NCBI RefSeq assembly: GCF_000761485.1
Contig: NZ_JPMX01000040.1
Location: 51,574 to 92,138, forward strand
DNA length: 40,565 nucleotides
From: Modestobacter caceresii
GTDB lineage: Bacteria > Actinomycetota > Actinomycetes > Mycobacteriales > Geodermatophilaceae
Direction of reading: 5' to 3'
Shown here: positions 1,125 through 36,089 of the stretch, one piece after another
Layout of the letters: each line of letters starts with the position of its first letter
Numbering within the stretch: the first letter of the stretch is position 1
The notes under the pieces: model-generated
The model's input: the letters and a program-made list of their open reading frames with translations, nothing else
Told to the model about the DNA's origin: nothing
Databases searched by the model: none
Made by a program: the position numbers and the translations under genes

Positions 1125-1148
1125 CAGGTACCGGCAGAGCCCCCCTCC
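1125..1148 (+). promoter_or_regulatory. Shared redox-regulon element, copy at the adh promoter
   Basis: AGGTACCGGCAGAGCCCCCC matches 19 of 20 positions of the window consensus RGGTACYGRCAGRGCCTCCC. It lies about 125 bases upstream of the minus-strand adh start and downstream of nadK. A partial second arm (TTGGCAGGGCC) occurs in the same orientation at 1106-1116. Confidence 0.6.
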
Positions 1149-1218
1149 CGGCTTGCGGACCGCTCAGGCATGCACGACGTGCCTGGCGTCGTCGGGTCCG
1201 GTCGCCGCGCGGTGCGGC

Positions 1219-2298
1219 TCAGAGGTCGCGGAACAGCTGGGCGATGTCATCGGGCATCGGCACGTCGTCCGAAGGCCGGTAGTCGGCCGGCGGCGTTCCG
1301 TCCGCGGTCGCGGCGGCGGCGTCGGCCAGCCCGAAACGGGCACGCAGCCGACCGTAGAAGTCGGTCGGGCGCAGCCGCACCAACCGCGCCCGAGTGGCGC
1401 CCGCGTGGACCGCCACCCAGTCCCCGGGCTCCAGGACGCCGCGCAGCTGGCCGTCGACGCTGACCGCCACCCGGCCGGAGCGCTCGAGCACCCGGACGCC
1501 GACCGTCTCGTCCGCGGCCAGCAGCAGACTGCGGTCGAACACCATGTGCGGAGCCACCGGGGTGAACACGAGAGCATCCAGTCGAGGCGAGACCACCGGT
1601 CCCCCGGCGGCGAAGCTGTAGGCAGTCGACCCGGTGGAGCTGGCCACGATGAGGGCATCTGCTGAGTAGGAGGCGAACAGCTTGGCGTCCAGGTAGACGC
1701 CCAGGCTGGCCTGCCGGTCGCGCGCCAGTTTCTCGAAGACCACGTCGTTCACCGCGACCTCGTCCACGGGCACGCCGTACCCCACGTCGTCCGGGTCACC
1801 GGGGCGCTGCACCGGTGGCGGCAGCGCCGGCCCTCGGCCGTAGCGGAGCAGGCCCTCGATCTCCGGTGGGATGGACAGCGGCCGACTCGCCCGCATCCGC
1901 AGCGTCAGTCGCGGCTCCACCGGTGCTGTCCCATCTACGCAGGCATCCAGCGCCCGTTCCACCTCCTCCGGTCGCACCTCGGTGAGGAAGCCGACCCGGC
2001 CCAGGTCCACGCCCAGCACCGGAGCGTCGTGCCGCGCAGCCACGCGCACCCCGCGGAGGAAGGTGCCATCGCCGCCCACGGTCACCACCAGGTCCAGCGC
2101 ACCCGTGGCGTCGTCGATACCGGCGCCCATGGTCGCGAAGGCCTCCGCCATGGAGCCGGAACCCGGGTCGGTCCACACGTCGACGTCGATGACAGCCACG
2201 TCACGGCGGCCGGCCCAGGCGCGAACCCGCTCGGCCACATCACGGGCAGCGGGACGGCCCCCGTGGACCACCAGCCCGATCCTCCGCACTGAAACCAT
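1219..2298 (-). CDS. nadK: NAD kinase
   Basis: Phosphorylates NAD to NADP in the cytoplasm and so sets the NADP(H) pool. The 359-residue product has the family signature GGDGT at residues 75-79 (in VVTVGGDGTFLRG), the VNDVVFEK segment at the position of the usual NE motif, and the STGSTAYSFAAGGPV loop. The ATG at 2298 is chosen because GGGGAGGAG sits directly upstream; a longer frame to 2331 exists but has no good ribosome site. It is somewhat longer than typical actinobacterial NadK because of an acidic, alanine-rich tail of about 40 residues. Its position beside many NADP-linked enzymes suggests an accessory copy dedicated to NADPH supply; whether the genome has a second one cannot be seen here. 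Confidence 0.92.
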   Translation of the reverse strand: MVSVRRIGLVVHGGRPAARDVAERVRAWAGRRDVAVIDVDVWTDPGSGSMAEAFATMGAGIDDATGALDLVVTVGGDGTFLRGVRVAARHDAPVLGVDLGRVGFLTEVRPEEVERALDACVDGTAPVEPRLTLRMRASRPLSIPPEIEGLLRYGRGPALPPPVQRPGDPDDVGYGVPVDEVAVNDVVFEKLARDRQASLGVYLDAKLFASYSADALIVASSTGSTAYSFAAGGPVVSPRLDALVFTPVAPHMVFDRSLLLAADETVGVRVLERSGRVAVSVDGQLRGVLEPGDWVAVHAGATRARLVRLRPTDFYGRLRARFGLADAAAATADGTPPADYRPSDDVPMPDDIAQLFRDL

Positions 2299-2421
2299 GG
2301 CTCCTCCCCGGATGAGCAACGCGATGGCCACCTCGTGCCCCGTACCGCGCCGGCGAACACCCGGGTGGGGATAGGACCGGCTCGCCGCACGCGGGAGACC
2401 GCCAGCGTGGGCCGTCCGGTC

Positions 2422-5046
2422 TCAGTCGGTCGAGCCCAGGATCCGGCCGAGAGCGGCCTCGTCGGGATGACGCAGCGTCGTCCCCGTCCGCGGGACGACG
2501 ACGACGGGCAGGTCGGCCTCGGACACGCCGAGCTCGTCCAGGAGGGCGCTGTCGGTGCCGGCCTCCACGTCGACGAGATCGGTCGTGAGGTCGTGCTCAC
2601 GGGCCCATTCGCGCAACCGGCGGGTGTCCGGGCTGCCGGGGCGCCCGATGATGCGCAGGTCGGCGGAGAGCTCGAACCGGATGGCGCGGCGGATGAGGAA
2701 GGCCCGCTGCACCAGCTCGCGCAGCTCCGTGTCCTCGGCGAGGACTTCGCGGAACTGGTCCTGCGACAGGCGGAGCACCTCGCCGGCTCGGATCACCACC
2801 GCCGTCCGGGACACGGGCTGGCTGCTGAACAGGTCCAGTTCCCCGAGGAACCGTCGTTCGCCGTGCACCCGGACGACCGGATCGGCCCCGCCCAGCTGAC
2901 CGACGACCGCCACCGCGCCGGAGAGGATGACGTGGAAGTCGTACCCGGGGTCACCGGGCCGGTAGAGGACGTCCCCGGCGACGACCTGCCGGCGAGTGCC
3001 GAAGCGTTCGAGCCGGCTGATCTGGGCGTCGGTCAGCCGCGGGTGGTCACCGCCGCGGTCCGGTGTCTCCGGCAGGTCGGCCGGGAGGTCCGGCAACGCC
3101 ACGACGGCATCCCGGCCGCGCTCGTCCGAGCCCACCGGAAGGCCACCCCCCGTCGTGGAGTCGGGGGCAGCACCTGTGAACGGACCCGGGACGGCGTCCT
3201 CGTCCGCACTCGCCAGCAGTGCGGCGGCCAGTGTGTCCGCGTCGTGGGTTCCGGTGTGCCGGCGCCCGCCGATGAAGAACGTGGGGATGCCGGTGACGCC
3301 GCTGGCCTCGGCGGAGGCGACGTCCTGCCCTATCCGACGGGCATGGCTGCCGGCGCCGAGATCGCGGGCGAAGCGCGGCAGGTCCAGGCCGATCGCCGCG
3401 GCGTGGTCGAGCAGGTCGGTCGTGGACAGCTGCTCCTGGTGGGCATAGAGCCGGTCGTACATCTCCCAGAACCGCCCCTGCCCGGCGGCGGCCTCCGCAG
3501 CCTCGGCCGCCAGCTGCGCGTGCGGATGGACGTCGGTCAGTGGTGCATGCCGGAAGACGTAGCGCAACCGGTCGCCGAAGCGCGCTCGCAGTTCGTCGAC
3601 CGCGCCGGTGGCGCGGCCGCAGAACGGGCACTCGAAGTCGCCGTACTCCACCAGCGTCAGCGGCGCCTCCGCCGGGCCCCTGATGTGGTCCCGGTCGGCG
3701 TCGACCGCCGGGTGGAGGAGGTCGGGCCGGGAGCCCGTACCCGGGGATCGCCGGGCGGCGAGCAGCAGCGTGCTCGTGCCTATCGCCATGGCCAGCAACG
3801 AGGCGGCCAGCACGCCGACCCGGGCCTGATCGGCGAGCTGTTCGTCGTCGAAGGCGAGGTCGACGATGAACAGCGAGATGGTGAAGCCGATGCCCGAGAG
3901 CGCGCCACCGCCGGCCAGGGTCGAGCCGGTGAGACCGGGCGCCAGGTCACCCAAGCGCAGCCGCACCGCGAGGACGGTGCCCAGCAGGATGCCGACGAGC
4001 TTGCCCAGCACGAGACCGGCGACGACGCCGAGTGTGATGGACGAGGTTGCCGCGGCACGCAGGGTGTCGCCGGACAGCGTCACACCGGCGTTGGCGAGGG
4101 CGAACAACGGCACGATCACGAAGCTGGTCCACGGCTGCCACAGCCGCTGCAGTCGCTCCCCCGGCGGCACGGAGCGTTCGATGGACAGCCGGGCGGCGTG
4201 CGCGAACTCCGGGTTCGGTGACTGCAGGTACGCCCGGGTGCGGCGAGCGGCGTCCTCAACCTCCTCCCGCCGGGCGATGTAGGCCGGCGTCACCAACGCG
4301 ATCACCACGCCCAGCAACGTCGGGTGGACACCAGAGAGGTACAGGGCGACCCATGCGATGGTCCCGAGTACCAAATAGGCTGGCCCCCGCCAGACGTTGA
4401 GCCACCGCAGCCCCAGCATCAGCCCCAGCACCAGCACCGCCAGACCGAGCGGGAGCAACCGCAGGTCCTCGGTGTAGAACAACGCGATGGCGGCGAGCGC
4501 GCCGACGTCGTCGGCGATCGCCAGGGCCAGGAGGAAGACCCGCAGCTGAGGTGGGCAGGCCGAGCCGACCAGGGCGAGGACGCCGAGCAGGAAGGCGGTG
4601 TCGGTCGAGATGACCACACCCCAGGCGGCCACCCCTTCCCCGCCGAGGTTGAACGCCACGTACACCAGGGCGGGGACGACCAGTCCGGCGAGGGCGGCCA
4701 GTGCCGGGACCGCAGCTCTCCGCCGGTCGGCGAGCTCCCCGATGGACAGCTCGCGCTTGACCTCCAACCCGACTACGAAGAAGAAGAAGGTCATCAGGCC
4801 GTCGTTCACCCAGTGCTGCAGGTCCAACGACAGCTCGCTGTCCCCGGCCCCGAATCGCACCGGGGTGTGCCAGAAGTCGTCGTAGCTGTCACCCCACGGC
4901 GAGTTGGCCCACAGCAGCGCGATGACCGTGGCGGCCAGCAACAGGCCCGCCCCACCGGCCTCGGTGCGCAGATGCCGACGCAACGGCGCCATCCTGGCGA
5001 GCAGACCGGTGCCGCCGGCAGTGGACCGGCTGTCAGCGACCGTCAT
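2422..5046 (-). CDS. nhaA: NhaA Na+/H+ antiporter fused to DsbA-like, cNMP-binding and glutaredoxin-like domains
   Basis: An 874-residue multidomain protein. Residues 1 to about 430 are a NhaA sodium/proton antiporter: LLWANSPW near the first helix, STDTAFLLG, and the paired acidic residues D179-D180 in AIADDVGAL, equivalent to the ion-binding Asp pair of E. coli NhaA. Residues about 450-625 are a DsbA/thioredoxin fold with C473-P-F-C476 and the cis-proline loop GVTGIPTFF. Residues about 660-775 are a cyclic-nucleotide-binding beta roll with the phosphate-cassette motif FLGELDLF (E736). Residues about 785-874 resemble the small glutaredoxin-like module that follows the cNMP domain in some actinobacterial thioredoxin-reductase fusions; the stop falls where the FAD domain would begin. 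The ATG at 5046 has GGAGAA upstream. NhaA-DsbA fusions are known in actinobacteria; the two extra C-terminal domains are unusual to me. E. coli NhaA has cytoplasmic termini, which would place the redox domain inside the cell. Confidence 0.88.
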   Translation of the reverse strand: MTVADSRSTAGGTGLLARMAPLRRHLRTEAGGAGLLLAATVIALLWANSPWGDSYDDFWHTPVRFGAGDSELSLDLQHWVNDGLMTFFFFVVGLEVKRELSIGELADRRRAAVPALAALAGLVVPALVYVAFNLGGEGVAAWGVVISTDTAFLLGVLALVGSACPPQLRVFLLALAIADDVGALAAIALFYTEDLRLLPLGLAVLVLGLMLGLRWLNVWRGPAYLVLGTIAWVALYLSGVHPTLLGVVIALVTPAYIARREEVEDAARRTRAYLQSPNPEFAHAARLSIERSVPPGERLQRLWQPWTSFVIVPLFALANAGVTLSGDTLRAAATSSITLGVVAGLVLGKLVGILLGTVLAVRLRLGDLAPGLTGSTLAGGGALSGIGFTISLFIVDLAFDDEQLADQARVGVLAASLLAMAIGTSTLLLAARRSPGTGSRPDLLHPAVDADRDHIRGPAEAPLTLVEYGDFECPFCGRATGAVDELRARFGDRLRYVFRHAPLTDVHPHAQLAAEAAEAAAGQGRFWEMYDRLYAHQEQLSTTDLLDHAAAIGLDLPRFARDLGAGSHARRIGQDVASAEASGVTGIPTFFIGGRRHTGTHDADTLAAALLASADEDAVPGPFTGAAPDSTTGGGLPVGSDERGRDAVVALPDLPADLPETPDRGGDHPRLTDAQISRLERFGTRRQVVAGDVLYRPGDPGYDFHVILSGAVAVVGQLGGADPVVRVHGERRFLGELDLFSSQPVSRTAVVIRAGEVLRLSQDQFREVLAEDTELRELVQRAFLIRRAIRFELSADLRIIGRPGSPDTRRLREWAREHDLTTDLVDVEAGTDSALLDELGVSEADLPVVVVPRTGTTLRHPDEAALGRILGSTD

Positions 5047-5190: not shown

Positions 5191-5210
5191 AGGTACTGCC
5201 AAGGCACCCC
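5191..5210 (+). promoter_or_regulatory. Shared redox-regulon element (weaker copy) between nhaA fusion and monooxygenase relic
   Basis: AGGTACTGCCAAGGCACCCC matches 16 of 20 consensus positions. It sits in the divergent interval between the nhaA fusion (start 5046, minus) and the flavin monooxygenase relic (start 5289, plus), so it could serve either. Confidence 0.45.
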
Positions 5211-5288: not shown

Positions 5289-5761
5289 ATGACAGTGCCT
5301 CGGAGAAGTTCGTCGGTGCGTAGCTACGTCGCGAATGTGACGGGCCCACACATCGTCGACGGGGTCGACCGGACTGTCGCGCCGGCACCTCGGCGTGCAG
5401 TCGTGGTGGGTGCGTCCCTGACGGGTCTGGTGACCTCGCTGCCTCTGGCACGCGCCGGCTGGCACGTGGTGGTCCTGGAACGCGTCGGCATCCTACGGAG
5501 GAGCGGCGCAGCACCGGCCGTGGACCCGCAGGACCTGCTCCGGCTGCTCGGATCGGGGCCTCCGTCACCGTGCCGGCCCGACCTCGCGGTCGATGCGGCG
5601 GCCACGGGCGCTGGACTCCCGGTGACGTGGGAGCGCTGCACGCCGGCTGCAGGCGGCCGCCAGGTGTGGACGTCGCCGGTTCCCGCCACCGCCCACGCGT
5701 GCCCCTCGTCCTGCTCGATCTCCACGACGCGGGACCAGTTGCGCACGTCGATGGTCGCGTG
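5289..5761 (+). pseudogene. FAD-dependent monooxygenase relic with an inverted internal segment
   Basis: Degraded copy of the flavin monooxygenase at 15233-16381. The plus frame gives RRAVVVGASLTGLVTSLPLA, the FAD-binding Rossmann start, then aligns through VDPQDLLRLLG, a short frame-shifted stretch, and LPVTW (about 5620-5634). Directly after that (5662-5761) homology continues only on the opposite strand. Everything beyond the first 150 or so residues of the family, including the GD...H FAD motif, is missing; the sequence then jumps to an SDR tail. It cannot encode a working enzyme. Promoter element copies flank it at 5191 and 5828. Confidence 0.75.
5662..5761 (-). other. Approximately 100-bp segment inverted in place inside the monooxygenase relic
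   Basis: Read on the minus strand this segment encodes RVVEIEQDEGHAWAVAGTGD. The intact paralogue has PVVEVGQDARQAWAATNTGA at about 15604-15663, exactly the stretch that should follow the preceding plus-strand homology. The piece is therefore in the correct place but reversed. I found no obvious long inverted repeat at its edges. Confidence 0.7.
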
Positions 5762-5766
5762 CCCGG

Positions 5767-5817
5767 AAGCTGACGGTCGACGGGCGCCGGACGCGGATCT
5801 ACGCCGCCCACAACTGA
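5767..5817 (+). pseudogene. C-terminal remnant of a short-chain dehydrogenase
   Basis: The frame from 5767 reads KLTVDGRRTRIYAAHN and stops at 5815-5817. This matches the last residues of the SDR at 16451-17212 (ELTVDGGQTQIYAGHN, stop). In the intact cluster that SDR follows the flavin monooxygenase, so the remnant preserves gene order although the 5' part of the gene is gone. Confidence 0.7.
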
Positions 5818-5827
5818 TCGGCGACGC

Positions 5828-5861
5828 GAGGCCCTGCCGGTACAGGTACCGGCAGGGCCTC
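5828..5861. promoter_or_regulatory. Perfect 16-bp palindromic form of the shared regulon element
   Basis: Arms 5828-5843 and 5846-5861 are exact reverse complements separated by AG. The right arm plus two following bases, AGGTACCGGCAGGGCCTCCC, is a 20 of 20 consensus match. It precedes the ADH fragment at 6000. A rho-independent terminator for the SDR remnant is the alternative reading, but there is no U-tract and the arm sequence is the repeated element. Confidence 0.7.
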
Positions 5862-5999
5862 CCTCCTGCGGTGTAGCCCGGACGCCGTCCGGGGAGGACC
5901 GAAGAGTCAGGCCGTGGTGGTACCGGTGCGACGACGCCCGCACTCCCGGCCTCTCGACGTCCCCGGTCCCCTCGCGGACCCTCACCGACAGGAGGCACC

Positions 6000-6290
6000 G
6001 TGCCCGCGAACATCGGCTACGCCACCTCCGACGCCAGCAGCCCGCTCGCTCCCCTGGAGTTCGACCGTTCACCGGTCGGACCCGAGGACGTGCTGATCGA
6101 CATCCGCTACTGCGGCGTCTGCCACTCCGACGTCCACCAGGCCCGCGACGAGTTCGACGGCGCCCTGGCCACCACCTTCCCCTGCATGCCCGGCCACGAG
6201 ATCGTGGGCATCGTCGCCGAGACCGTGGCCAAGGACGTCCGCTTCCGGTTCGTCATCGACAACGCCACCCTGCGCCCAGCGGGCGCCTGA
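6000..6290 (+). pseudogene. Internally deleted zinc alcohol dehydrogenase
   Basis: A 96-residue open frame from GTG 6000 with ribosome site CAGGAGG. Residues 1 to about 78 are the N-terminal catalytic lobe of an AdhC/YahK-type ADH with CGVCHSD and PGHEIVG. The sequence then jumps directly to KDVRFRFVIDNATL, which is the normal extreme C-terminus of the family. About 250 residues, including the structural zinc lobe and the whole NAD(P)-binding domain, are missing, yet the frame is kept. It cannot bind cofactor and is almost certainly non-functional as a dehydrogenase. Related to the intact adh at 1-1000. Confidence 0.8.
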
Positions 6291-7253: not shown

Positions 7254-7724
7254 GTGAACATCGACTTCGCGGGAAAGGCCGCCTTCGTCACCGGCGGCTC
7301 GAAGGGGATCGGCAAGGCCATCGCCGAGACGCTGGCCGCCTCCAGCGCCAACGTCGGCGTCATGGCCCGCGGCAAGGACGAACTCGAGGCGACGGTCGCG
7401 GAGCTGAACGCCCGAGAGGGCGGCAGGGCTCTCGCCGTCGCCGGGGACGTCTCGAGCCGCGACGAGCTGGGCGAGGCCGTCCGGCGCACGGCCCGCGAGT
7501 TCGGCGGCCTGCACCTCGCGGTCAACAACGCCGGCATCACGGGGCGAGGGGGCCTGCTCCACGAGACCGGGCCGGAGAACTGGCGCACCGTCATGGGCGT
7601 CAACCTCGACGGCCTCGCCTACGCGATGATGGCCGGGATCGTCGCCTTCCTCCTGTCCGACCTGTCCAGCTGCACCACCGGGACGGACATCCTCCTCGAC
7701 GGGGCCTTCCTGCTCCGGGAGTGA
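7254..7724 (+). pseudogene. Internally deleted short-chain dehydrogenase/reductase
   Basis: A 156-residue frame from GTG 7254 with GAGGAG upstream. It begins like a normal classical SDR (AAFVTGGSKGIGKAIAETLA, VNNAG at about residue 90, then VMGVNLDGLAYAM) and then jumps to MAGIVAFLLSDLSSCTTGTD, the normal C-terminal part. The roughly 90 missing residues hold the catalytic Ser and the YxxxK pair, so the product cannot be catalytic. The frame is intact across the junction, as in the ADH fragment at 6000 and the aldo/keto reductase at 22528. Confidence 0.8.
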
Positions 7725-9141: not shown

Positions 9142-9142
9142 C

Positions 9143-22056: not shown

Positions 22057-23055
<999 letters not shown>

Positions 23056-23121
23056 CCTCCCAGCACGGACACCGAGGGCCGGCGTCATCGACATCGGGCC
23101 CTGACCTCATCCCGCGTAGCA

Positions 23122-23145
23122 CCGGCACAAATCCACCCGTGCCGG
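23122..23145. terminator. Short hairpin between two aldo/keto reductase genes
   Basis: 7-bp arms CCGGCAC (23122-23128) and GTGCCGG (23139-23145) with a 10-base loop. It is 67 bases past the deleted reductase; it could be a terminator or part of the next gene's leader. Confidence 0.35.
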
Positions 23146-23188
23146 GGGGCCGTCACCCGTCTCACTCACCAGAAGAAGGAGCCAACTC

Positions 23189-25802: not shown

Positions 25803-25885
25803 GGGGTGACTCCTTCGGTTGGGGACGGTGTTGGATCAGCGCGCACGAGGGCCGACGGCTCGGCGAGCAGCTCGGGGTCCAGTCG

Positions 25886-26818
25886 TCATCGGCTGTCCGG
25901 TGGAGCGGGTCGGGTGAACAGCTCGCCCGGGAATCGGGCCGACCTCTCGGCCCGTCCGTCGGCGAACAGACGGACGTGGGAGAACCGGAAGCTCTGCCCC
26001 AGTCGCCGGGGGTCCGTGCTGAACAGCGCTGTCGCGAGGCCGTCGGCGGTGGCCGCGTCGGCGGCGAGGGCCCAGGTGGCCAGCACGCCCTTCACCGGCT
26101 CCCCTGTCCGGGCGTCGAGCACGTGGTGCAGCCCGTCGCCCCAGGCCCGCCGGTTCGTGGCAGACGCGCACAACGAGCCGTTCTGCAGCTCCACGACACC
26201 GATGACCGATCGAGGGTCGAGCGGGTGCTCCAGGCCGACCCGCACCGCGCTCGCACCACGGTGTCGGAGGTCGCCACTCGCGTCGATGACGAACTCGGCC
26301 GCGCCGGTCGCCTCGAGCAGGACCGCGATCAGGTCCACGAGGAGACCCTTGCCCGCGGCACCGACGTCGACCACGAGCGGACGGCGCGTGACCAGCGTGC
26401 CTCCCTCCCGAACGACGTCGGCCGCCCAGGTCGGCCGCTGGTGCACGGCTTGTCGCCGGAGGTCCTCGGGCGCCGGCACGAGCGAGTACGCGGAGTCGTA
26501 GCCGAGCAGCTCCAACTGCCGCCCGACCAGCGGGTCCACGGCGCCGTCAGTCGCCGCGGACAGCCGGTCGAACAGCTCGAACAGCGTCACCGCCTCGGCC
26601 GGGAACGCGAAGACACCACCGTTCTCGGCCGCGGCGATCTCCGCGACCACCGAGTCGGGGCGGAAGCGTGACCAGACGGCGTTGAACCGCTCGACCCGCT
26701 CCAGCACGTGATCACGGACATCCTGGGCGAGCGGTTCGGAGGTCACGACCTCCCAGCGGGTGCCGATCCCGTGGAAGGACCAGCGCGACCGCCCCTCGGT
26801 GTCCGTCGCTGAGCTCAG
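25886..26818 (-). CDS. apbE: FAD:protein FMN transferase (ApbE)
   Basis: Attaches FMN covalently to Thr in target proteins using FAD. About 310 residues. The Mg/FAD site is shown by VDVGAAGKGLLVD (the GxxKG motif), FVIDASGDLRHRG and the segment ADAATADGLATALF near the C-terminus. The early motif FNAVWSRFRPDS is the usual FxxxxSRFxxxS. No ATG, GTG or TTG fits well; the frame-consistent start is CTG 26818, which overlaps the upstream stop as CTGA, or a GTG further inside the upstream gene. I give the CTG as provisional. No signal peptide, so modification would be intracellular unless the N-terminus is longer. Its partner is the FMN-binding lipoprotein immediately upstream. Confidence 0.82.
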   Translation of the reverse strand: MSSATDTEGRSRWSFHGIGTRWEVVTSEPLAQDVRDHVLERVERFNAVWSRFRPDSVVAEIAAAENGGVFAFPAEAVTLFELFDRLSAATDGAVDPLVGRQLELLGYDSAYSLVPAPEDLRRQAVHQRPTWAADVVREGGTLVTRRPLVVDVGAAGKGLLVDLIAVLLEATGAAEFVIDASGDLRHRGASAVRVGLEHPLDPRSVIGVVELQNGSLCASATNRRAWGDGLHHVLDARTGEPVKGVLATWALAADAATADGLATALFSTDPRRLGQSFRFSHVRLFADGRAERSARFPGELFTRPAPPDSR

Positions 26819-27258
26819 CGCGAGGCCTCGTTCTTGATCCGGTCGAGGGCGTCGTTGAAGCCGTCGGGGGTCCCACTCGAACCTGCCAGCTCGGACACCC
26901 GCACCTCGTCGATCGGCCGGCCGATCACGACCTCGGGGACCGCGTCCGCGAACCGCTGCTGGTAGTCCAGCGAGGTCGGGTCGGTGGCATGCGTGGTGAC
27001 GCCGACGTCGGTGATCACGTCGTCCTCGAGGGTCAGCTCGACCCCGATGGAGGAAGGCAGGCTGCCGTACCACCCGTCGGCGGAATAGGCGCCGTCCTGG
27101 TATCTCGACTCCACGTTCTCCTGGCTTTCGTCCTGTGTGGCACTCGTCGACGCGGCGGACCGCCCGTCCGACGACGTCTCGCCGCCAGCGGCACACCCCG
27201 CAATGGCCACGACACCGACTGCCCCGGCGACCGCGGCCCTCCATCGCTGCTCGGTCAT
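26815..27258 (-). CDS. FMN-binding domain lipoprotein
   Basis: A 147-residue secreted lipoprotein. Residues 5-21 are a signal sequence ending in the lipobox AIAG before Cys22. A Ser/Glu-rich linker follows, then one FMN_bind domain: DGWYGSLPSSIGVELTLED, and DALDRI at its end. The flavinylation segment normally reads (S/T)GAT; here it is SGSSGTPDGF-like (ELAGSSGTPDGF), so the acceptor Thr would be in SSGT. Next to apbE, which is the enzyme that loads FMN onto such domains. Probably an extracytoplasmic electron carrier. ATG 27258 follows GAGGAG. Confidence 0.85.
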   Translation of the reverse strand: MTEQRWRAAVAGAVGVVAIAGCAAGGETSSDGRSAASTSATQDESQENVESRYQDGAYSADGWYGSLPSSIGVELTLEDDVITDVGVTTHATDPTSLDYQQRFADAVPEVVIGRPIDEVRVSELAGSSGTPDGFNDALDRIKNEASR

Positions 27259-27395
27259 GCTGATCTCCTCATCCAGGTGGCCCAGACGCGCCCGCAGCGA
27301 TGACCTCGACCTCGCCACCGGCGACCGCTCGGGCACGACGACTGGAGTGGCGCGCCCGGGGCTGGCCCGGCGGCGCCACTCCACTGGCAGCGTGC

Positions 27396-27836
27396 TCAGC
27401 TCTGCAGCGGTCGCTTGTCGTTGATCGAGAAGTGCGAGATCCGGGTCTTGATCATCCATCGGACCTCCTGGCGCACGTACTCGTCGTCGTAGCGGATGCT
27501 GCTGTCGGTGACGAACTCCTGGCCGTCCTCCTCGCTGACCAGCTTGACCTGGCAGTAGGCGATGCCACGCGCGGAGTCGCCGTCGATCTCGACGTCCTGC
27601 TGGCCGTTCATGTGGAAGGAGCGCTTGACGTTGGCGGTGAAGCCGGTGAACGTCTCCTCCAGCTGCTGGGTGCCTGAGATGTCGAACAGCAACGTCTCGC
27701 CCATGTAGACCCGCACCTTGGTGTCCGGGGTGAACAGCGGCATCTGATCTGCGATCCGCTTCTCGTCCGCCAGGTTGGCGAAGGCGTCCACCAGCTCCCT
27801 GAGTGCGACCTTGGCCTCGAGGATCTCCAACGACAT
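27396..27836 (-). CDS. NTF2/SnoaL-fold protein
   Basis: A 146-residue protein of the nuclear-transport-factor-2-like fold: long N-terminal helices (ALRELVDAFANLADEKR, DQMPLFTPD), then beta strands with TGFTANVKRSFHMNGQQDV and RWMIKTRISHFS. SnoaL-type members are small cyclases, isomerases or dehydratases, or binding proteins. ATG 27836. It opens the minus-strand group whose promoter faces that of the EmrB-type exporter at 28267; the element at 28057-28078 lies in the shared interval, oriented toward this gene. Confidence 0.82.
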   Translation of the reverse strand: MSLEILEAKVALRELVDAFANLADEKRIADQMPLFTPDTKVRVYMGETLLFDISGTQQLEETFTGFTANVKRSFHMNGQQDVEIDGDSARGIAYCQVKLVSEEDGQEFVTDSSIRYDDEYVRQEVRWMIKTRISHFSINDKRPLQS

Positions 27837-28056
27837 GGTCTTCCTGCTCTCTGTGATCGGCCCGATCCCGGGCTGACACTGCGGTCCTCACCGCGGTGCG
27901 CGGCTGTGTCCGCACGCCTCCGCGCGAGAGCCCAGGCAGCAGCCGCGCCGTAGCGCGGCATGACCGGGCACCGGTTCGGCCTGTGCGGTGGCAGGCGCGG
28001 AGCGGGGCGTCTGCTCGGCCCCGCGAAATCCAAGGTAGGTCGCCTCGGCGGCCGCA

Positions 28057-28078
28057 GGCAGGCCCTGCCACTGCCTGG
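28057..28078 (-). promoter_or_regulatory. Shared regulon element between NTF2-fold gene and exporter
   Basis: The minus strand reads AGGCAGTGGCAGGGCCTGCC, 17 of 20 consensus positions. A further GGCAGGGTCTGG arm follows at about 28084-28095. It lies in the divergent interval 27837-28266. Confidence 0.5.
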
Positions 28079-28266
28079 AACGCCAGACCCTGCCGCCGGG
28101 CGGACAGAGGCTGTTCTCTTGCTGTGGGCCGAGGCCATCGCCAGCGTTCCGGTGAGCGAGGGGCGACCGCCGCGACAGCGACGCGCTCCGGGGCCCGGAG
28201 CCCGTACCGGGACCCCGGCCACCCTCCCGGGGCCTTCCCCCACCATCACGACCACGAAGGACTTCC

Positions 28267-29742
28267 GTGTCTGCACCGCTCCGCACCGGCACTCCGCCTG
28301 TGCACAAGACGGCGATCCTGTCGATCATCCTGATCAGCTTCTTCATGGTGATCCTGGACAACTCGATCATCTTCACCGGCCTGCCGGTCATCCAGAGCAC
28401 GATGGGCTTCTCCGACGCCGGTCTCGCCTGGGTGCAGGACGCCTACACCCTGACGTTCGGTGGCCTGCTCCTGCTGGCCGCACGCGCGGCCGACATCCTG
28501 GGCCGCCGCCGGCTGTTCGTCATCGGCCTGGTGATCTTCACCGTCGCGTCCATGCTGGTCGGTCTTGCGTGGGACGCACCGTCGATGATCGCAGCGCGGG
28601 CGCTCCAGGGTGTCGGTTCGGCGATCGTCGCTCCCACCTCCCTGGCACTGCTCACAGCGACGTTCGACGAGGGGCGCGAGCGCTCCCGCGCGGTCGCGCT
28701 CTACGCCGCAGTCGCCGGCATCGGCGCAAGCGTCGGCCTGGTGGTGGGGGGCGCGGCGGTCGAGCTCGTCTCGTGGCGCGCCGGCTTCTTCCTCAACCTG
28801 CCCATCGGCCTGCTCATGCTGTTCCTCACCCTGCGCTTCATCCCCGAGCTGCCTCGCACGCCGGGCCGGTTCGACGTGCCCGGCGCCGTGACCTCCACGC
28901 TCGGCACCGCTGCACTGACCTTCGGCATCATCGAGTCGAGCCTGGTCGGGTGGGAGTCCGCACGGACCGTCGGCTCCCTGGTCGCCGGCCTCGTCCTGCT
29001 GACGGTCTTCGTCGTCCTCGAACGGCGTGCCGCCCAGCCGATCGTGCCGCTGCGGCTGTTCGCCAGCGGCGTGCGCTCCGGCTCCTACGCCGTGCGCCTG
29101 CTGTTCATGGGCGCCTTCATGGGCTTCTTCTACTACACGACGCAGTTCTTCCAGGTCGTCCTCGGCTGGAACGCCCTCCAGGCCGGGCTCGGGTTCCTGC
29201 CGATGACGGTGGTCAACTTCGCCGTGGCCATGGCGGTGACCCCGGTGATGCGGAGGATCGGCGCCTTCACCACCTTGGCACTGGGCATCCTCTCGACCTT
29301 GGCCGGCATGGCCTGGCTCAGCACGTTGGACGCCGACACATCGTTCTGGATCGGCATGGCGGTCCCCATGGCCCTCATCGGCATCGGGCAGGGCCTGGCG
29401 CTGGCCCCGATGACCGACTTCGGCATCCACGGGGTGACCAGTTCGGATGCCGGCGCTGCCTCCGGGCTGATCTCCATGGCGCAGCAGCTCGGCCTGTCGC
29501 TCGGCCTGGCCGTGCTGGTCGCCCTCACCGCGGGGGTCCCGGACGACGCCGCCGCCGTCGAGCGGACCACCGACGTCGCCCGGATCGGCTTGACCGGCGC
29601 CGCGGGCATGCTGGTCGTGGCCCTGGTGGTCGTGTTCGCCGCGATCCTGCCCGGGGCGACCTCGGCTCGCCGGACCGCTGCGCAGCGGCAGGACGCCCCG
29701 GAGCCGGCGGATCGTCTCAGGGTCGGCGTCCCCGTCGAGTGA
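28267..29742 (+). CDS. EmrB/QacA-type drug:H+ antiporter (MFS, DHA2)
   Basis: A 491-residue exporter with about 14 hydrophobic helices. Helix 1 contains MVILDNSIIFTGLP, the motif D1 variant LDxTIVN of this family; motif A is ADILGRRRLFVIG between helices 2 and 3; ARALQGVGSAIVAP is motif B and GPxxGG is present in the modified form VVGGAAVELVSWR. GTG 28267 is the likely start (ACTTCC upstream, weak ribosome site). Closely similar to the exporter at 34572-36020. Probably expels an organic compound or its oxidised products. Confidence 0.9.
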   Translation: MSAPLRTGTPPVHKTAILSIILISFFMVILDNSIIFTGLPVIQSTMGFSDAGLAWVQDAYTLTFGGLLLLAARAADILGRRRLFVIGLVIFTVASMLVGLAWDAPSMIAARALQGVGSAIVAPTSLALLTATFDEGRERSRAVALYAAVAGIGASVGLVVGGAAVELVSWRAGFFLNLPIGLLMLFLTLRFIPELPRTPGRFDVPGAVTSTLGTAALTFGIIESSLVGWESARTVGSLVAGLVLLTVFVVLERRAAQPIVPLRLFASGVRSGSYAVRLLFMGAFMGFFYYTTQFFQVVLGWNALQAGLGFLPMTVVNFAVAMAVTPVMRRIGAFTTLALGILSTLAGMAWLSTLDADTSFWIGMAVPMALIGIGQGLALAPMTDFGIHGVTSSDAGAASGLISMAQQLGLSLGLAVLVALTAGVPDDAAAVERTTDVARIGLTGAAGMLVVALVVVFAAILPGATSARRTAAQRQDAPEPADRLRVGVPVE

Positions 29743-31131
<1,389 letters not shown>

Positions 31132-31149
31132 CCCGAACAGGCGTCGTCC

Positions 31150-31189
31150 CAGCGGAGCCCGCCCACCGGGTGTCGGGCGGACTCCGCTG
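31150..31189 (+). terminator. Terminator after aldo/keto reductase 30142
   Basis: 15-bp arms at 31150-31164 and 31175-31189 with one mismatch and a 10-base loop, 18 bases after the stop. Confidence 0.6.
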
Positions 31190-31221
31190 CGACCTGCCCC
31201 CGCGGCCGGCAAGGCGGCGCA

Positions 31222-31242
31222 GGGCAGGTCCTGCCAATACCT
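31222..31242 (-). promoter_or_regulatory. Orphan copy of the shared regulon element between convergent genes
   Basis: The minus strand reads AGGTATTGGCAGGACCTGCC, 17 of 20 consensus positions. Both neighbours (reductase 30142 and gnd) end toward it, so no gene start is served. The 31132-31486 interval otherwise holds two terminators. Confidence 0.5.
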
Positions 31243-31400
31243 CACCCGGTGCCCTCCCGACCGGAGGTGGGCACAGGGACAACAGCTCGATGCTCGTCGC
31301 GACCACTCGGGTCACCGGTGACCCGCACCGGGATGCTGTGGACGTCGGCGTGCGCAGCGGACCCGATCAGGACGTCCTGCCCCTGCCCGCTGCGAGCAGA

Positions 31401-31447
31401 CCGGGGACCTCGTCGGTCGGCGCACCTCGGGCCGACGAGGTCCCCGG
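31401..31447 (-). terminator. Terminator after gnd
   Basis: Perfect 16-bp arms CCGGGGACCTCGTCGG (31401-31416) and complement (31432-31447), 15-base loop, 40 bases past the gnd stop on the minus strand. Confidence 0.65.
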
Positions 31448-31486
31448 GCCGGACGGCTGCCGGCGCTCGCCCAGCAGCCGCCGGGC

Positions 31487-32968
31487 TCAGTGGGTGGAGG
31501 GCTCGGTCGCGATCTCCGTGCGGTCACCGGACCAGAGGGTGTGGAAGGTGCCCCCGGCGTCGGTCCGGCGGTAGGTGTGCGCGCCGAAGAAGTCCCGCTG
31601 GCCCTGGATCAGCGCGGCCGGCAGCCGCTCGGAGGACAGCGAGTCGAAGTACGCCAGCGCGGAGGCGAAGCCGGGCACCGGGACGCCGGACAGCGCGGCG
31701 GCCGACACGATCCGCCGCCACGCCTGCTCGCCACTGGCGACCGCGTCGGCGAAGTACTCGTCCGCGAGCAGCGTCGCCAGTTCCGGGTCGCGCTGGTAGG
31801 CCTCGACGATCCGGTTGAGGAACCGGGCCCGGATGATGCAGCCACCGCGCCAGATCCTCGCGACCGCGCCCAGGTCGATGTCCCAGCCGTACTCGCGGGC
31901 GCCGGCGATGATCGTGTCGAAGCCCTGCGCGTAGGCGACCACCTTGGAGGCGTAGAGAGCGGCGCGGACGTCGTCCTCGAACCCGTCGTAGGTGGGCTGC
32001 ACCTGCGGGCGCCCAGTGATCGCCTGCTGGACGGCAGCCCGCTGCGCGGGCTTGCTGGAGACCGCGCGGGCGAAGACCGCCTCGCCGATGCCGGAGACGG
32101 GTACGCCGAGCCCGACCGCGTTCTGCACGGTCCACACCCCGGTGCCCTTCGAACCGGCCTGGTCGACGATCACGTCCACCAGGGGCTGCCCGGTGCGGGC
32201 GTCGGTCTGCCGGAGCACCTCGGCGGTGATCTCGATCAGGTAGGACTCCAGGTCGCCGTCGTTCCAGGTGGCGAACACGTCGGCGATCGCTGCGACGTCG
32301 TGGCCGCCGATGCGGCGCAGCAGGTCGTAGGGCTCCGCGATCAGCTGCATGTCGGCGTACTCGATGCCGTTGTGCACCATCTTCACGAAGTGACCGGCGC
32401 CGTCGGTGCCCACGTGGGTGACGCACGGCTCCCCCTCGGCGACCGCGGCGATCGAGGCGAGGATCGGCCCCAGCGTCCGGTAGGCCTCCGCCGAGCCGCC
32501 GGGCATGATCGAGGGCCCGTTGAGCGCGCCCTCTTCACCGCCGGAGATGCCCGCACCCACGAAGTCCAGGCCCTTCGCGCGCAGCTCCCGCTCCCGGCGG
32601 ATGGTGTCGGCGAAGTTGGCGTTGCCGCCGTCGACGATGATGTCGCCCGGCTCGAAGCGCTCGGCCAGCTGCGCGATCACAGCGTCCGTCCCGCGGCCGG
32701 CCTGCACCATGATGATCGCGGTCCGCGGCCGGGCCAGGGACGCGACGAAGTCGTCGACCGTCTCCGAGGCCACGAAACCGGCCTCCGGGTGCTCGGCGAC
32801 CAGCGCCCGGGTCCGCTCCGGGGACCGGTTGTACACAGCGACGGTGTTGCCCTCCCGGCTGGCCAGGTTGCGCGCCAGGTTGGAACCCATCACCGCCATG
32901 CCCACCACACCGATGTTCGCCCAGGCGATGGCGTGCTGGCCCGCAGCCCCTTGGATGGTCCCGTCCAT
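31487..32968 (-). CDS. gnd: 6-phosphogluconate dehydrogenase, decarboxylating
   Basis: Converts 6-phosphogluconate to ribulose 5-phosphate and CO2 while making NADPH. The 493-residue length fits the long homodimeric type. NIGVVGMAVMGSNLARNLA is the coenzyme loop with YNRSPERT (Arg for the NADP phosphate), IIVDGGNANFADT and GAGISGGEEGALNGPSIMPG form the substrate site, and the catalytic Lys and Glu are in HFVKMVHNGIEYADMQ. The C-terminal helices and tail are complete. ATG 32968. Monocistronic with its own terminator; its presence in a reductase island fits NADPH supply. An N-terminal extension of about 15 residues precedes the Rossmann loop. Confidence 0.95.
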   Translation of the reverse strand: MDGTIQGAAGQHAIAWANIGVVGMAVMGSNLARNLASREGNTVAVYNRSPERTRALVAEHPEAGFVASETVDDFVASLARPRTAIIMVQAGRGTDAVIAQLAERFEPGDIIVDGGNANFADTIRRERELRAKGLDFVGAGISGGEEGALNGPSIMPGGSAEAYRTLGPILASIAAVAEGEPCVTHVGTDGAGHFVKMVHNGIEYADMQLIAEPYDLLRRIGGHDVAAIADVFATWNDGDLESYLIEITAEVLRQTDARTGQPLVDVIVDQAGSKGTGVWTVQNAVGLGVPVSGIGEAVFARAVSSKPAQRAAVQQAITGRPQVQPTYDGFEDDVRAALYASKVVAYAQGFDTIIAGAREYGWDIDLGAVARIWRGGCIIRARFLNRIVEAYQRDPELATLLADEYFADAVASGEQAWRRIVSAAALSGVPVPGFASALAYFDSLSSERLPAALIQGQRDFFGAHTYRRTDAGGTFHTLWSGDRTEIATEPSTH

Positions 32969-33294
32969 GTCGTCCTGCCTCTCGAAGTGGTGGCGCCGAC
33001 CTCCGGCCGGCAGTTCACGATGACGAGCACGAAGAGCAGTGCCTGCTTCATGACCCCGGCGCGCCTGTTCGGTCGAACGATTCGACGGCGGTGAGCCGGA
33101 GCTTTTCGACGTCCGGCCCGGCTCTGCACTCGCCGCGCCACAGGGTCACCGACCGCGCCTTCGTGCGTGACCTGGATCACCACCTGGCGCTCACGTCCAG
33201 CAGCGTGGAGCAGGCGCTCGTCCCCTCGTCGCGGCTGAGCAGTCAGCACTCGGAGGACCCACGGCGCCCATCGTCGGGGACGCCGATCAGCCCG
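32969..33294. other. Intergenic region upstream of gnd
   Basis: 326 bases with no convincing gene, hairpin or regulon element. It must contain the gnd promoter; I cannot identify it with confidence. Confidence 0.5.
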
Positions 33295-33678
33295 TCATCG
33301 CCAGGTGGAGGCCACCGCTCCGGTAGCGAGCCAGGCATCGCCGGCACGGGTGAAGCTGATCCGCAGCCGGAGTGGCCAGGTGCCGTTGGCCCCCCAGATC
33401 GTCGCCCGGGTGTGGGTGCGGGCGGTGAGCGTCGGAGACCCCCCGGAGACATCGACCGACACGTCGACGTCCAGCATGTCGTGGTAGCTCATGGCCCCCG
33501 ACCGCACGTCGGCCAGCCACTCGTCCCTGGCCTGCCGGTAGCCGGTCATGTGCACGAGGGTGAAGTCCTCGGTGAGCAGAGCGCCGAGCGCGTCGGCGTC
33601 CCCGGCGACCATCGCCCGGCACTGCGCCTCGTAGTTGGCGCGGACGGCGGCCGCAGTGCCGGGCTGGTCAGCGGGCAT
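33295..33678 (-). CDS. NTF2-fold (SnoaL/DUF4440-like) protein
   Basis: A 127-residue protein: helix VRANYEAQCRAMVAGDADAL, then LLTEDFTLVHMTGYRQARDE and strands ending RISFTRAGDAWLATGAVAST. This is the DUF4440/SnoaL_3 pattern, often found near oxidoreductases as a small isomerase or lactone-handling protein. ATG 33678 lies six bases past the stop of the aldo/keto reductase upstream, so the two are co-transcribed with the exporter. Confidence 0.82.
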   Translation of the reverse strand: MPADQPGTAAAVRANYEAQCRAMVAGDADALGALLTEDFTLVHMTGYRQARDEWLADVRSGAMSYHDMLDVDVSVDVSGGSPTLTARTHTRATIWGANGTWPLRLRISFTRAGDAWLATGAVASTWR

Positions 33679-33684
33679 GACGGC

Positions 33685-34575
33685 TCAGGCTTCCGGGATG
33701 TCGACGCCGAACTTCGCACGGGTGATCTCGGCCGGGTCGGGACCGCCGCGCACGCCGGTGTCCAGGGCGTCGATGGCAGCCAGCTGGTCGTCGGTGAGCT
33801 CGAAGTCGAAGACGTCGATGTTCTCGGCGATCCGGGACGGCGTGACCGACTTGGGGATCACCTGCCGGCCCTGCTGCAGGTGCCAGCGCAGCATGACCTG
33901 CGCAGGGGTCTTGCCGACCGCCGAGGCGATGTCCGTGATCGTGGAGTCCTGCAGGGTGCTCTTCCGGTCCCCACCGAAGCCGGGATAGAAGGTGATGCCG
34001 CCGATCGGCGACCAGGCCTGCGACAGGATCCCGTGCTCGGCATTCGCCGCCAGCAGCTCGGACTGCCGGAAGTACGGGTGCACCTCGATCTGGTTGACCG
34101 CCGGGATCACCGAGGTCTCGGCCAGCAGCCGGGTGAGGTGGTCGGGCATGAAGTTGCTGACGCCGATCGCCCGGACGTCGCCGTCGGCCAGGGCCTTCTC
34201 CAGGGCCCGGTAGGCGGCCACCGTGAGGTCGAACTCGTCGGGCAGCGGCTGGTGGAGGATCAGCAGGTCGATCTGGTCGATGCCCAGCTTGCCGGCGCTC
34301 TTGTCGACGGCGTGCCGCGCCTGGTCGTAGCCGTAGTCGGTGATCCACACCTTGGTCTCGACGAACACGTCCGAACGGTCGACGTCCGAGCGGCGGAGTC
34401 CCTCGCCGACCTCGCGCTCGTTGCCGTAGGCAGCGGCGGTGTCGATGTGCCGGTAGCCGGTCGTGAGGGCGGTCTGCACGGCGGCAACGGTCTCCTCGGT
34501 CGGGGTCTGGAAGACACCGAGCCCGACAGCCGGGATCTGGACGCCGTTGTTCAGGGTGAACGAAGAGCTGCTCAT
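33685..34575 (-). CDS. Aldo/keto reductase, 2,5-diketo-D-gluconate reductase type (AKR5)
   Basis: A 296-residue NADPH-dependent reductase. The family start TLNNGVQIPAVGLGVFQTP is followed by the tetrad: Asp and Tyr in HIDTAAAYGNE, Lys in VETKVWI, His in LLILHQP. IGVSNFMPDHL, VNQIEVHPYF and VIPKSVTPSRI are typical AKR5 motifs, the last being the NADPH phosphate loop. ATG 34575 overlaps the exporter stop as ATGA, so translation is coupled. A two-armed copy of the shared element lies just upstream, inside the last codons of the exporter gene, so the reductase may also have its own regulated promoter. Confidence 0.92.
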   Translation of the reverse strand: MSSSSFTLNNGVQIPAVGLGVFQTPTEETVAAVQTALTTGYRHIDTAAAYGNEREVGEGLRRSDVDRSDVFVETKVWITDYGYDQARHAVDKSAGKLGIDQIDLLILHQPLPDEFDLTVAAYRALEKALADGDVRAIGVSNFMPDHLTRLLAETSVIPAVNQIEVHPYFRQSELLAANAEHGILSQAWSPIGGITFYPGFGGDRKSTLQDSTITDIASAVGKTPAQVMLRWHLQQGRQVIPKSVTPSRIAENIDVFDFELTDDQLAAIDALDTGVRGGPDPAEITRAKFGVDIPEA

Positions 34576-36020
34576 GACGATGATGCTGCACCCGCTTCGG
34601 GGCGAGTGGCAGTACCTGTGGGACCGGGTACTGGCAGTGCCCCCTTCGTGCGGCCACCCGGCACCAGGACGACCAGCACGACGACGAGGGCGACGCCCAG
34701 CAGGGCACTGCCGGCCGTCAGGGCGGCGCCCACCTGCTGCGCCACGGCCGCCGGGCCGGTCAGCGCAGTGCCGGCGCGGACGGCGACCGCGGACAGCACC
34801 GCCAGCCCGAGTGCCATGCCCAGCTGGTGGGCGGTGTTGACGAGGCCGGAGGCGGCACCTGCGTCCTGCGGCGGCACGCCGGCGATGCCGGAGCTGGTGA
34901 GCGGCGCGAACGCCAGCCCCTGGCCCGCCCCGACCAGCACCATGGGCAGCGCCACCGAGGTCAGGTAGACCTCGCTGATGCCGGCCCGGCTGAGCCACAC
35001 CATGCCGACCAGCGTCAGCAGCACGCCGCCGGCGAGCAGGAGGGCGTCGGGCACTCGGGTGCGCAGCCGCGGGATCGCCAGCGCGACGATGAAGTTCACC
35101 AGCGACATGGGCAGGAAACCCAGGCCCGCCTCGAGAGGGGTGAAGCCGAGCGCGTCCTGCAGGTACTGGGTGGTGAAGAAGAAGAAGCCGATCATTGCGC
35201 CCAGGTACAGCAGCCGGGCGGCGTAGGCGCCGCTGCGTTCACGGCTGCGGAACAACCTCAGCGGCATGATCGGTTGCGCGACCCGGGACTCCGTGACCAC
35301 CAGCGCCGCCAGCAGGACCACCCCGACGACGAGCGGGACGACCACCCGCGCCGAACCCCAGCCGGTCTCCCCGGACTCGATGATGCCGAAGACGAGGCCG
35401 CCCATACCGAGCGTCGCGCACAAGGCGCCGACGACATCGATACGGCCGCTCTGCCTGGGCGTCTCGATGAGCACGGCCCGCGCGGCGATGATCATGGCTA
35501 TCGCGATCGGCACGTTGACGAGGAACGCGGCCCGCCAGGAGATCAGGTCGGTCAGCGCGCCGCCCACGAGCAGCCCCAGACTGGCGCCGATGCCGGCGGT
35601 GGCGGCGTACCAGGCGACGGCGCGACTCCGTGCCTCTCCCTCGAAGTAGGCGGTGATCAGTGCCAGCGAGGTCGGCGCGACGATCGCGGCGCCCACGCCC
35701 TGCAGCGCACGGGCGGCGATCATCCACCAGCCCGCGGGAGCCAGCCCGATCAGCAGCGAGGCCGTGCCGAAGACCCCCAGACCGATGACGAACAGACGAC
35801 GCCGGCCGACGATGTCTCCGGCCCGGGCGCCGAGCAGCAGGAGTCCGCCGAACACCAGCGTGTAGGCGTCCTGGACCCACGACAGACCGGTGGGTGAGAG
35901 ATCGAGGCCTTCCCGGATGCTCGGCAGCCCGGTGAAGATGACCGAGTTGTCCAGCAGGATCATGAAGTAGCTGATCAAGATGATCGCCAAGATCGCCGCT
36001 GGCTTGCTGTTCCGGGGCAC
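34572..36020 (-). CDS. EmrB/QacA-type drug:H+ antiporter (MFS, DHA2), paralogue 2
   Basis: A 482-residue exporter with about 14 hydrophobic helices. FMILLDNSVIFTGLPSI in helix 1, ARAGDIVGRRRLFVIG (motif A) and ARALQGVGAAIVAPTSLAL (motif B) match the exporter at 28267 closely. GTG 36020 (MPRNSKPAAI) is the start. The last about 20 residues (ALPVPGPTGTATRPEAG) are encoded by the regulon element and its flanks, so the hydrophilic tail is probably incidental to a DNA site. First gene of a three-gene operon with the AKR5 reductase and NTF2-fold gene; divergent from the XRE/MmyB regulator at 36121, which is its likely regulator. Confidence 0.9.
   Translation of the reverse strand: MPRNSKPAAILAIILISYFMILLDNSVIFTGLPSIREGLDLSPTGLSWVQDAYTLVFGGLLLLGARAGDIVGRRRLFVIGLGVFGTASLLIGLAPAGWWMIAARALQGVGAAIVAPTSLALITAYFEGEARSRAVAWYAATAGIGASLGLLVGGALTDLISWRAAFLVNVPIAIAMIIAARAVLIETPRQSGRIDVVGALCATLGMGGLVFGIIESGETGWGSARVVVPLVVGVVLLAALVVTESRVAQPIMPLRLFRSRERSGAYAARLLYLGAMIGFFFFTTQYLQDALGFTPLEAGLGFLPMSLVNFIVALAIPRLRTRVPDALLLAGGVLLTLVGMVWLSRAGISEVYLTSVALPMVLVGAGQGLAFAPLTSSGIAGVPPQDAGAASGLVNTAHQLGMALGLAVLSAVAVRAGTALTGPAAVAQQVGAALTAGSALLGVALVVVLVVLVPGGRTKGALPVPGPTGTATRPEAGAASSS
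34599..34644. promoter_or_regulatory. Two-armed shared regulon element inside the 3' end of exporter 34572
   Basis: The right arm (34627-34644) with GGGTACTGGCAGTGCCCCCT matches 17 of 20 positions; the left arm (34599-34616) is an inverted copy with three mismatches over 18. The dyad is about 24 bases upstream of the AKR5 start. Confidence 0.6.
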
Positions 36021-36069
36021 GGTGCCAGGGCACGACGGCGCGGCCCGGCGTGGGAGTCACGGTCGTTCC

Positions 36070-36089
36070 GGGTACTGGCAGAGCCTCCC
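36070..36089 (+). promoter_or_regulatory. Shared regulon element between exporter and second XRE/MmyB regulator, perfect copy
   Basis: GGGTACTGGCAGAGCCTCCC matches all 20 positions. It is 49 bases from the exporter start (36020, minus) and 31 bases from the regulator start (36121), overlapping where the regulator's -35 would be. Confidence 0.7.

Follow-up and report, generated by a model that had tools for sequence, protein, structure and literature searches.

The MmyB/MltR family consists of PAS-linked XRE regulators whose genes are often divergent from a dehydrogenase or an antibiotic-related gene, according to the available part of the paper by Xu et al. (2012, PMC3406030). In that part, the dimer is expected to read a pseudo-palindrome with its recognition helices approximately one turn apart, MmyB-like regulators are suggested to mark antibiotic and redox genes, "B-boxes" of MmyB are named without sequence letters, and the solved structure 3pxp is described as holding myristic acid. 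Here, we examined a 20-bp element that recurs in a 40,565-nucleotide stretch of the Modestobacter caceresii genome (the window: bases 51,574 to 92,138 of contig 40, ending at the contig end, in a genome of 4.95 Mb; G+C content, ∼71%). The element is probably the operator of an MmyB-like regulator (MltR, PF17765), most likely the product of the gene at position 36121 (MltR-B), and the units that carry it would constitute a locally multiplied and partly decayed regulon. Our gene map covers 78% of the window, with start codons and decayed-gene calls made partly by judgement.

Searching the window with the 20-mer at ≤3 mismatches detected 11 matches, at positions 1126, 5826 (minus strand), 5844, 14172, 18133, 21946, 22434, 28057 (minus), 31223 (minus), 34626, and 36070, compared to a mean of 0.07 (maximum, 1) in dinucleotide shuffles. 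Two further copies, at 5191 and 11475/11478, had 4 mismatches. The repeated motif described in an earlier note on this DNA is therefore real, and the three copies reported to match at 20 of 20 positions were confirmed (5844, 22434, and 36070). The coordinates given there held to within 3 bases, several being off by 1 to 3 bases, for all copies except a weak one at 10485, which had 6 mismatches and was absent from a matrix scan down to 9 bits; the overlapping inverted copy at 5826 had been missed. The copies had also been said to lie nearly all in promoter intervals. While 11 of 12 sites were outside the genes of our map, site 31223 was between two convergent gene ends. Site 34626 is within the last codons of an MFS gene, directly before an aldo/keto reductase, and site 1126 would fall inside the alcohol dehydrogenase reading frame if the first ATG (1171) were the start codon.

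As the earlier pattern had been built from the window sites themselves, the motif was sought where the window played no part, the independent test being a matrix from other genomes only. Orthologue loci of the 36121 regulator (n = 80) were obtained from titled records, nearly all of them actinobacterial, with a few metagenome bins and one record titled Burkholderiales; the closest named orthologues were from Klenkia soli and Trujillonella endophytica (Geodermatophilaceae). Unseeded motif discovery on the upstream regions of 79 of these loci, one being too near a contig end, and with the window excluded, detected GGTACTGRCAGTRCCTCCC approximately 50 bp before the regulator start codon, with a TANNNT −10 element beginning 38 bp after the site start. 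The total motif score was 1443 (40 starts) compared to 583 to 618 in 8 shuffles (12 starts each). The best site was at the canonical place in 65 of 79 regions; with held-out scoring, the number was 61 of 79, including 52 sites of ≥12 bits; a manual count in further relatives gave a match at this place with ≤5 mismatches in 20 of 29 loci. The matrix was constructed from the 51 best-scoring of the 79 discovered sites, a few of which (e.g., L149, L096, and L110) were off the canonical place. It detected 11 window sites of ≥15 bits (Markov expectation, 0.017) and 12 of ≥13 bits (expectation, 0.1). The element matched the conserved promoter site of the orthologues of the 36121 regulator. Protein-operator covariation over 60 loci produced weak signals (top z, 5.8) explicable by relatedness and was not relied on.

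Together with its preceding base, GGTACTGRCAGTRCCTCCC makes up a 17-bp near-palindrome, AGGTACTG-R-CAGTACCT, with complementary bases at distances of 1 to 7 on either side of a central purine. A promoter alignment was assembled from the 52 promoters with a site of ≥15 bits. A second, abutting operator on the opposite strand, termed box A (GGGAG...GTTCC, which reads as GGAACGNCAGNNACTCCC there) and called with a simple rule requiring GGGAG, was present in 31 of these promoters. On the regulator side, CTCCCT was followed after 18 bp by TANNNT in 41 of 52 promoters (25 of 31 with box A and 16 of 21 without it). In 48 of 52, an ATG or GTG, irrespective of frame, was located 3 to 11 nucleotides after this hexamer. 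On the target side, 24 of the 31 promoters with box A had a T....T hexamer at a distance of exactly 18 bp, compared to 3 of 21 without (chance, 2%). Box A would provide a mirror-image promoter for the divergent gene. Judging by the spacing, the starts are probably leaderless and the operator position is probably class II-like. Many genera had CTCCC(T/A) at the −35 place (site positions 15 to 20), a strongly conserved segment located for the most part beyond the palindrome.

The usual −35 element is TTGACA, which CTCCC does not resemble. Given that the operator occupies the −35 position with a conserved CTCCC instead of a typical −35 element, our guess inclines slightly towards ligand-dependent activation, with autoactivation, over repression. 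Alternatively, MltR-B could act as a repressor, obstructing the −35 regions of the two divergent promoters until released by ligand or oxidation, a reading that we consider a serious contender, if short of an even chance. On each side, the −35 place falls within the operator, and the available part of a report on the Corynebacterium glutamicum XRE protein MsrR describes repression of a divergent MFS gene and of itself (PMC7532634). Conservation of the −35 place as CTCCC is, however, what is expected of an activator-dependent promoter, and MmyB is described in the accessible part of its paper as switching its genes on (PMC3406030).

Two intact regulator genes of this type are present in the window, as follows.

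36121 to 37014, plus strand: MltR-B, intact XRE/MmyB-like regulator and probable reader of the sites (PF13560 HTH_31; PF17765 MLTR_LBD)
10526 to 11410, plus strand: MltR-A, second intact MmyB-like regulator, ∼50% identical to MltR-B; its own promoter has only the poor site at 10485

Both proteins have an N-terminal XRE helix-turn-helix (PF13560; 44.1 bits for 36121 and 37.0 bits for 10526) and a C-terminal PAS-like MLTR_LBD domain matching the whole profile (PF17765; 188.6 and 192.3 bits, respectively). MltR-B was up to 85% identical to its orthologues in relatives and, in a single-sequence search, weakly matched 3pxp (E = 0.0037); solved structures searched by profile at an E value of 1e-10 gave no match. 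The MltR-B gene is divergent from an MFS exporter gene here, and its orthologues are divergent from AKR_d or MDR_d (L231, L237, L240, and L241). The divergent neighbor of the MltR-A gene belongs to the LtrA family and is neither a dehydrogenase/reductase gene nor antibiotic related. As MltR-A has no good site of its own, MltR-B is the likely reader of the array.

The sites could instead be read by MltR-A or jointly by both regulators with cross talk, which appears rather unlikely. In favor of such an arrangement, the segment GVSVDYY..ERG is common to both proteins, and the genes closest to MltR-A in relatives carry similar sites, e.g., TGTACTGACAGGGCACCCC; against it, the window sites fit the MltR-B type of consensus and the MltR-A promoter is without a good site. 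The nearly identical recognition helices reported earlier were found to be so for the short segment GVSVDYY[VI]R[ML]ERG but constitute weak evidence, as the paralogue L032 is equally similar: over the 48-residue helix-turn-helix segment, MltR-B is 69% identical to MltR-A and also 69% identical to L032. The proposal of a cis-linked regulon read by the two XRE/MmyB regulators was upheld largely for 36121 but is unproven for 10526, whose promoter has no good site. Four of seven other MmyB-like paralogues in this genome (L032, L034, L036, and L037) had, as judged by eye, related but different upstream sites, e.g., TGTCACTGGCAGGGACA, in which a CTGGCAG-like core was common and the outer bases were changed.

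The window sites and the genes around them were as follows.

2 to 1000, minus strand: MDR_a, zinc-type dehydrogenase at the window edge (PF08240/PF00107; start codon approximate)
1126 to 1145, plus strand: operator with box A facing MDR_a, 24.9 bits; TTCTCT at 18 bp, regulator-side −10 lost
5191 to 5210, plus strand: site before a flavoenzyme fragment, 17.4 bits; 4 mismatches, no promoter elements at the canonical places
5844 to 5863, plus strand: 20/20 site by alcohol dehydrogenase and flavin adenine dinucleotide-enzyme fragments, 26.7 bits; inverted copy at 5826 to 5845, minus strand
11478 to 11497, plus strand: weaker site, 13.7 bits; 4 mismatches, TAGCCT at 18 bp as in the canonical arrangement, followed downstream by a hydrolase gene (11724)
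14172 to 14191, plus strand: site before MDR_c, 16.9 bits; then 18 bp, TGTCAT, 6 nucleotides, and ATG
14223 to 15236, plus strand: MDR_c, zinc-type dehydrogenase (PF00107/PF08240)
18133 to 18152, plus strand: site 38 bp before the GTG of AKR_a, 27.5 bits; no clear −10 at 18 bp
18190 to 19194, plus strand: AKR_a, aldo/keto reductase (PF00248)
20812 to 21855, minus strand: MDR_d, zinc-type dehydrogenase, MltR linked in relatives (PF08240/PF00107; start codon approximate)
21946 to 21965, plus strand: operator with box A between MDR_d and an MltR fragment, 23.0 bits; TTGTGT at 18 bp on the MDR side
22108 to 22323, plus strand: third MltR, a fragment comprising the C-terminal part of the ligand-binding domain (69.6 bits; profile positions 96 to 168 of 168)
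22434 to 22453, plus strand: 20/20 site, 29.6 bits; lacks a −10 at the canonical position, with an aldo/keto reductase gene carrying an internal deletion 100 bp further on
28057 to 28076, minus strand: operator with box A facing MFS_a, 15.9 bits; TTCTCT at 18 bp, regulator-side TACCTT kept, no regulator gene after it
28267 to 29742, plus strand: MFS_a, exporter, 58% identical to MFS_b (PF07690)
31223 to 31242, minus strand: site between convergent gene ends, 18.3 bits; lacks canonically placed promoter elements and is probably a relic
31487 to 32968, minus strand: 6-phosphogluconate dehydrogenase (PF00393)
33685 to 34575, minus strand: AKR_d, aldo/keto reductase, MltR linked in relatives (PF00248)
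34572 to 36020, minus strand: MFS_b, exporter divergent from MltR-B (PF07690, 176 bits)
34626 to 34645, plus strand: operator with box A in the 3′ end of MFS_b, 26.1 bits; box A side faces AKR_d, with CAGCAT, 7 nucleotides, and the start codon
36052 to 36069, minus strand: second, abutting operator (box A) predicted to serve MFS_b; CTCCC, 18 bp, TGCCCT, 6 nucleotides, and GTG at 36020
36070 to 36089, plus strand: MltR-B operator, 20/20, 30.3 bits; then 18 bp, TACCGT, 6 nucleotides, and the GTG start, with the same place in orthologues

Six sites were in the twin form (1126, 5844, 21946, 28057 on the minus strand, 34626, and 36070), with box A scores of 9.3 to 19.1 compared to a 99th percentile of 2.4 at random window positions. 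All but one of the six faced a gene on the box A side, namely, MDR_a, MDR_d, MFS_a, AKR_d, and MFS_b, with the hexamers TTCTCT, TTGTGT, TTCTCT, CAGCAT, and TGCCCT, respectively, at 18 bp. The start codon followed after 7 nucleotides for AKR_d and 6 for MFS_b and was further off for the other three. The same operator is present upstream of several separate transcription units, as judged from gene order (MDR_a, MDR_d, MFS_a, AKR_d, MFS_b, and MDR_c), and the reported location of the element before oxidoreductases and exporters was borne out, several window genes of both kinds carrying the site in a matching promoter geometry. By these features, about 6 to 8 of the 12 sites look usable and 4 do not.

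Several side features of the window were noted. The two overlapping inverted sites at 5826 to 5863 form a long inverted repeat between decayed genes. Internally deleted or truncated oxidoreductase genes are located at 5380 to 5800, 6000 to 6290, 7290 to 7724, and 22553 to 23055, with intact paralogues nearby; in the deleted genes, the N-terminal part runs directly into the C-terminal part. One reading frame (2422 to 5046, minus strand) fuses a sodium/proton antiporter, a thioredoxin/DsbA-like domain, and a cyclic-nucleotide-binding domain.

Most of the sites might be relics, i.e., promoters of former MltR copies whose regulator genes have been deleted, with no present function. This interpretation would accommodate the third MltR being only a fragment, the retention by 28057 of a regulator-side −10 without a regulator after it, the internal deletions in several window genes, and the absence of promoter elements at the canonical places of 31223 and 22434. 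It is nevertheless improbable as an account of most sites. Sites 1126 and 34626 have lost the regulator-side −10 yet keep the operator, box A, and the target-side spacing and, as only the target side remains, were apparently kept for the target. In addition, a relative (L241) has a separate operator between AKR_d and MDR_d, and another locus (L245) has one before an MDR gene with no MltR in the 10 kb fetched. Chance, composition, or a mobile repeat can be dismissed, even at a G+C content of ∼71%, since 11 matches were found against 0.07 expected (0.017 at ≥15 bits), the likeness among window sites stops at the operator edges with unrelated flanks (mean pairwise identity, 0.29 to 0.34 in seven flanking blocks outside the site and its −20 to 0 block), and the element recurs at a fixed spacing in orthologue promoters of many species.

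The element was concentrated locally. At ≤2 mismatches, the genome had 10 matches (3 in a reversed control) and 22 congeners had 0 to 2 each (reversed control, 1 to 5); of nine genome-wide matches counted at this threshold, eight were inside the window. The array spans ∼48 kb, and three matrix sites were observed just outside the window on contig 40 (L229), at 39,686 (22.1 bits), 43,387 (16.4 bits), and 46,602 (21.2 bits). In the relatives L231, L237, L240, and L241, a compact unit was found in which MltR-B is accompanied by AKR_d (69 to 82% identity) and MDR_d (79 to 89%), with 1 to 3 operators per 20 kb; in L240, a 6-phosphogluconate dehydrogenase gene (87% identity) separates AKR_d from MDR_d. 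In the window, the same genes are spread over 16 kb amid other oxidoreductases. Across the 80 named loci (1.51 Mb), 26 sites were detected beyond the self-sites, compared to 3.4 expected, and no locus had more than 4. Another possible local array was noted at L078 (Amycolatopsis bartoniae), with 4 matrix sites in 14.2 kb around an MltR; the densest 14.2 kb of the window (21,947 to 36,071) has 6. The array is unusual within the genus, and clustering as such also occurs elsewhere.

A number of observations weigh against the proposed regulon. Sites 5191, 5844, 22434, and 31223 are next to decayed genes or lack an adjoining promoter, and so provide no evidence of working regulation, and 18133 lacks a −10 at the canonical place. 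An ATG or GTG was located 3 to 11 nucleotides after the target-side hexamer in only 19 of 31 box A promoters compared to 7 of 21 without box A. The reader is not firmly fixed by its helices, since paralogue L032, with equal similarity, has a different palindrome upstream, and MltR-A lacks a good site in its own promoter. A self-site of ≥15 bits was missing from 24 of 80 named orthologue loci. Clustering is not unique to the window, as the mean density in L078 is like that of the window's 11 sites in 40.6 kb. The genome scan concentrated sites in the window at ≤2 mismatches but gave no excess at ≤3 mismatches over the whole genome (35, compared to 32 in the reversed control), so that the excess is visible only at ≤2 mismatches or inside contig 40. 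Finally, most homologues of the target genes in relatives lacked the site: no site of 12 bits was present within 300 bp upstream of 28 of 30 AKR, 24 of 30 MDR, and 15 of 18 MFS homologues, this genome's own copies being included in the totals. Control of the targets is therefore not widely conserved. The homologues with a site were this genome's own copies, MltR-adjacent genes, and two MDR homologues (L152 and L170) that are not close to any MltR gene listed for the respective genomes. In the L152 genome, which belongs to another family, the 26.8-bit site at L245:3878-3897, with TAGGGT at 18 bp, precedes an MDR_c homologue (66% identity).

In the proposed mechanism, an MltR-B dimer would bind the 17-bp near-palindrome just upstream of the promoter, with the CTCCC end of the operator occupying the −35 place and the −10 element 18 bp further on. 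In the ancestral unit, two operators abutting head to head would have separated the regulator gene from a divergently oriented gene for an oxidoreductase or exporter. Such units may have multiplied within 48 kb in this genome, some regulator copies being lost or broken with the target-side operators staying in place, and the one remaining regulator would act in trans on a dispersed local set of three zinc-type dehydrogenases, one or two aldo/keto reductases, and two MFS exporters. We offer only tentatively the more general suggestion that a regulon could grow by copying of units, decay of regulator copies, and capture in trans of orphaned target-side operators by one survivor, with CTCCC replacing a −35 element and working only with the regulator bound.

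The element is very probably a genuine operator, and the local regulon proposed for it, in part decayed, is plausible and would belong to a regulator family already described. For MmyB-like regulators, no operator sequence was found in print in openly licensed papers (without supplements and figures; the 2009 MmyB paper was not covered), and the letters of the site had no match in a search of such papers; no such operator was present in the available parts of PMC12565409, PMC10717218, and PMC9739823. As far as searched, the operator consensus, the twin-promoter geometry, and the local multiplication are new within this openly licensed literature. Actinobacteria have many MmyB-like regulators; with a consensus operator at a set distance from promoters that are probably leaderless, autoregulation and targets would become predictable from sequence for a large subfamily. 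The local array may illustrate, at one point in time, how a pair comprising one regulator and one target could become a many-gene regulon.

At the PRM promoter of phage lambda, CI, a phage repressor, binds as an XRE-type dimer next to the −35 place, with adjacent operators between divergent promoters. The arrangement predicted here, with adjacent operators between divergent promoters and next to the −35 place, is similar in this respect. MsrR of C. glutamicum, as described in the available part of PMC7532634, is also an XRE regulator divergent from an MFS exporter gene, binding between the two genes and regulating itself. Unlike the array, it has a single local target region and is a thiol-based repressor, and the likeness is at the level of the XRE family. 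The closest resemblance in kind is to the MmyB/MltR family (PMC3406030, available part), with which this locus shares the XRE helix-turn-helix joined to MLTR_LBD and the divergent neighbor gene; the 17-bp near-palindrome may correspond to the pseudo-palindrome expected for the dimer. The locus differs from the family as described there in having one type of operator before many dispersed genes, with the former regulator copies missing or broken.

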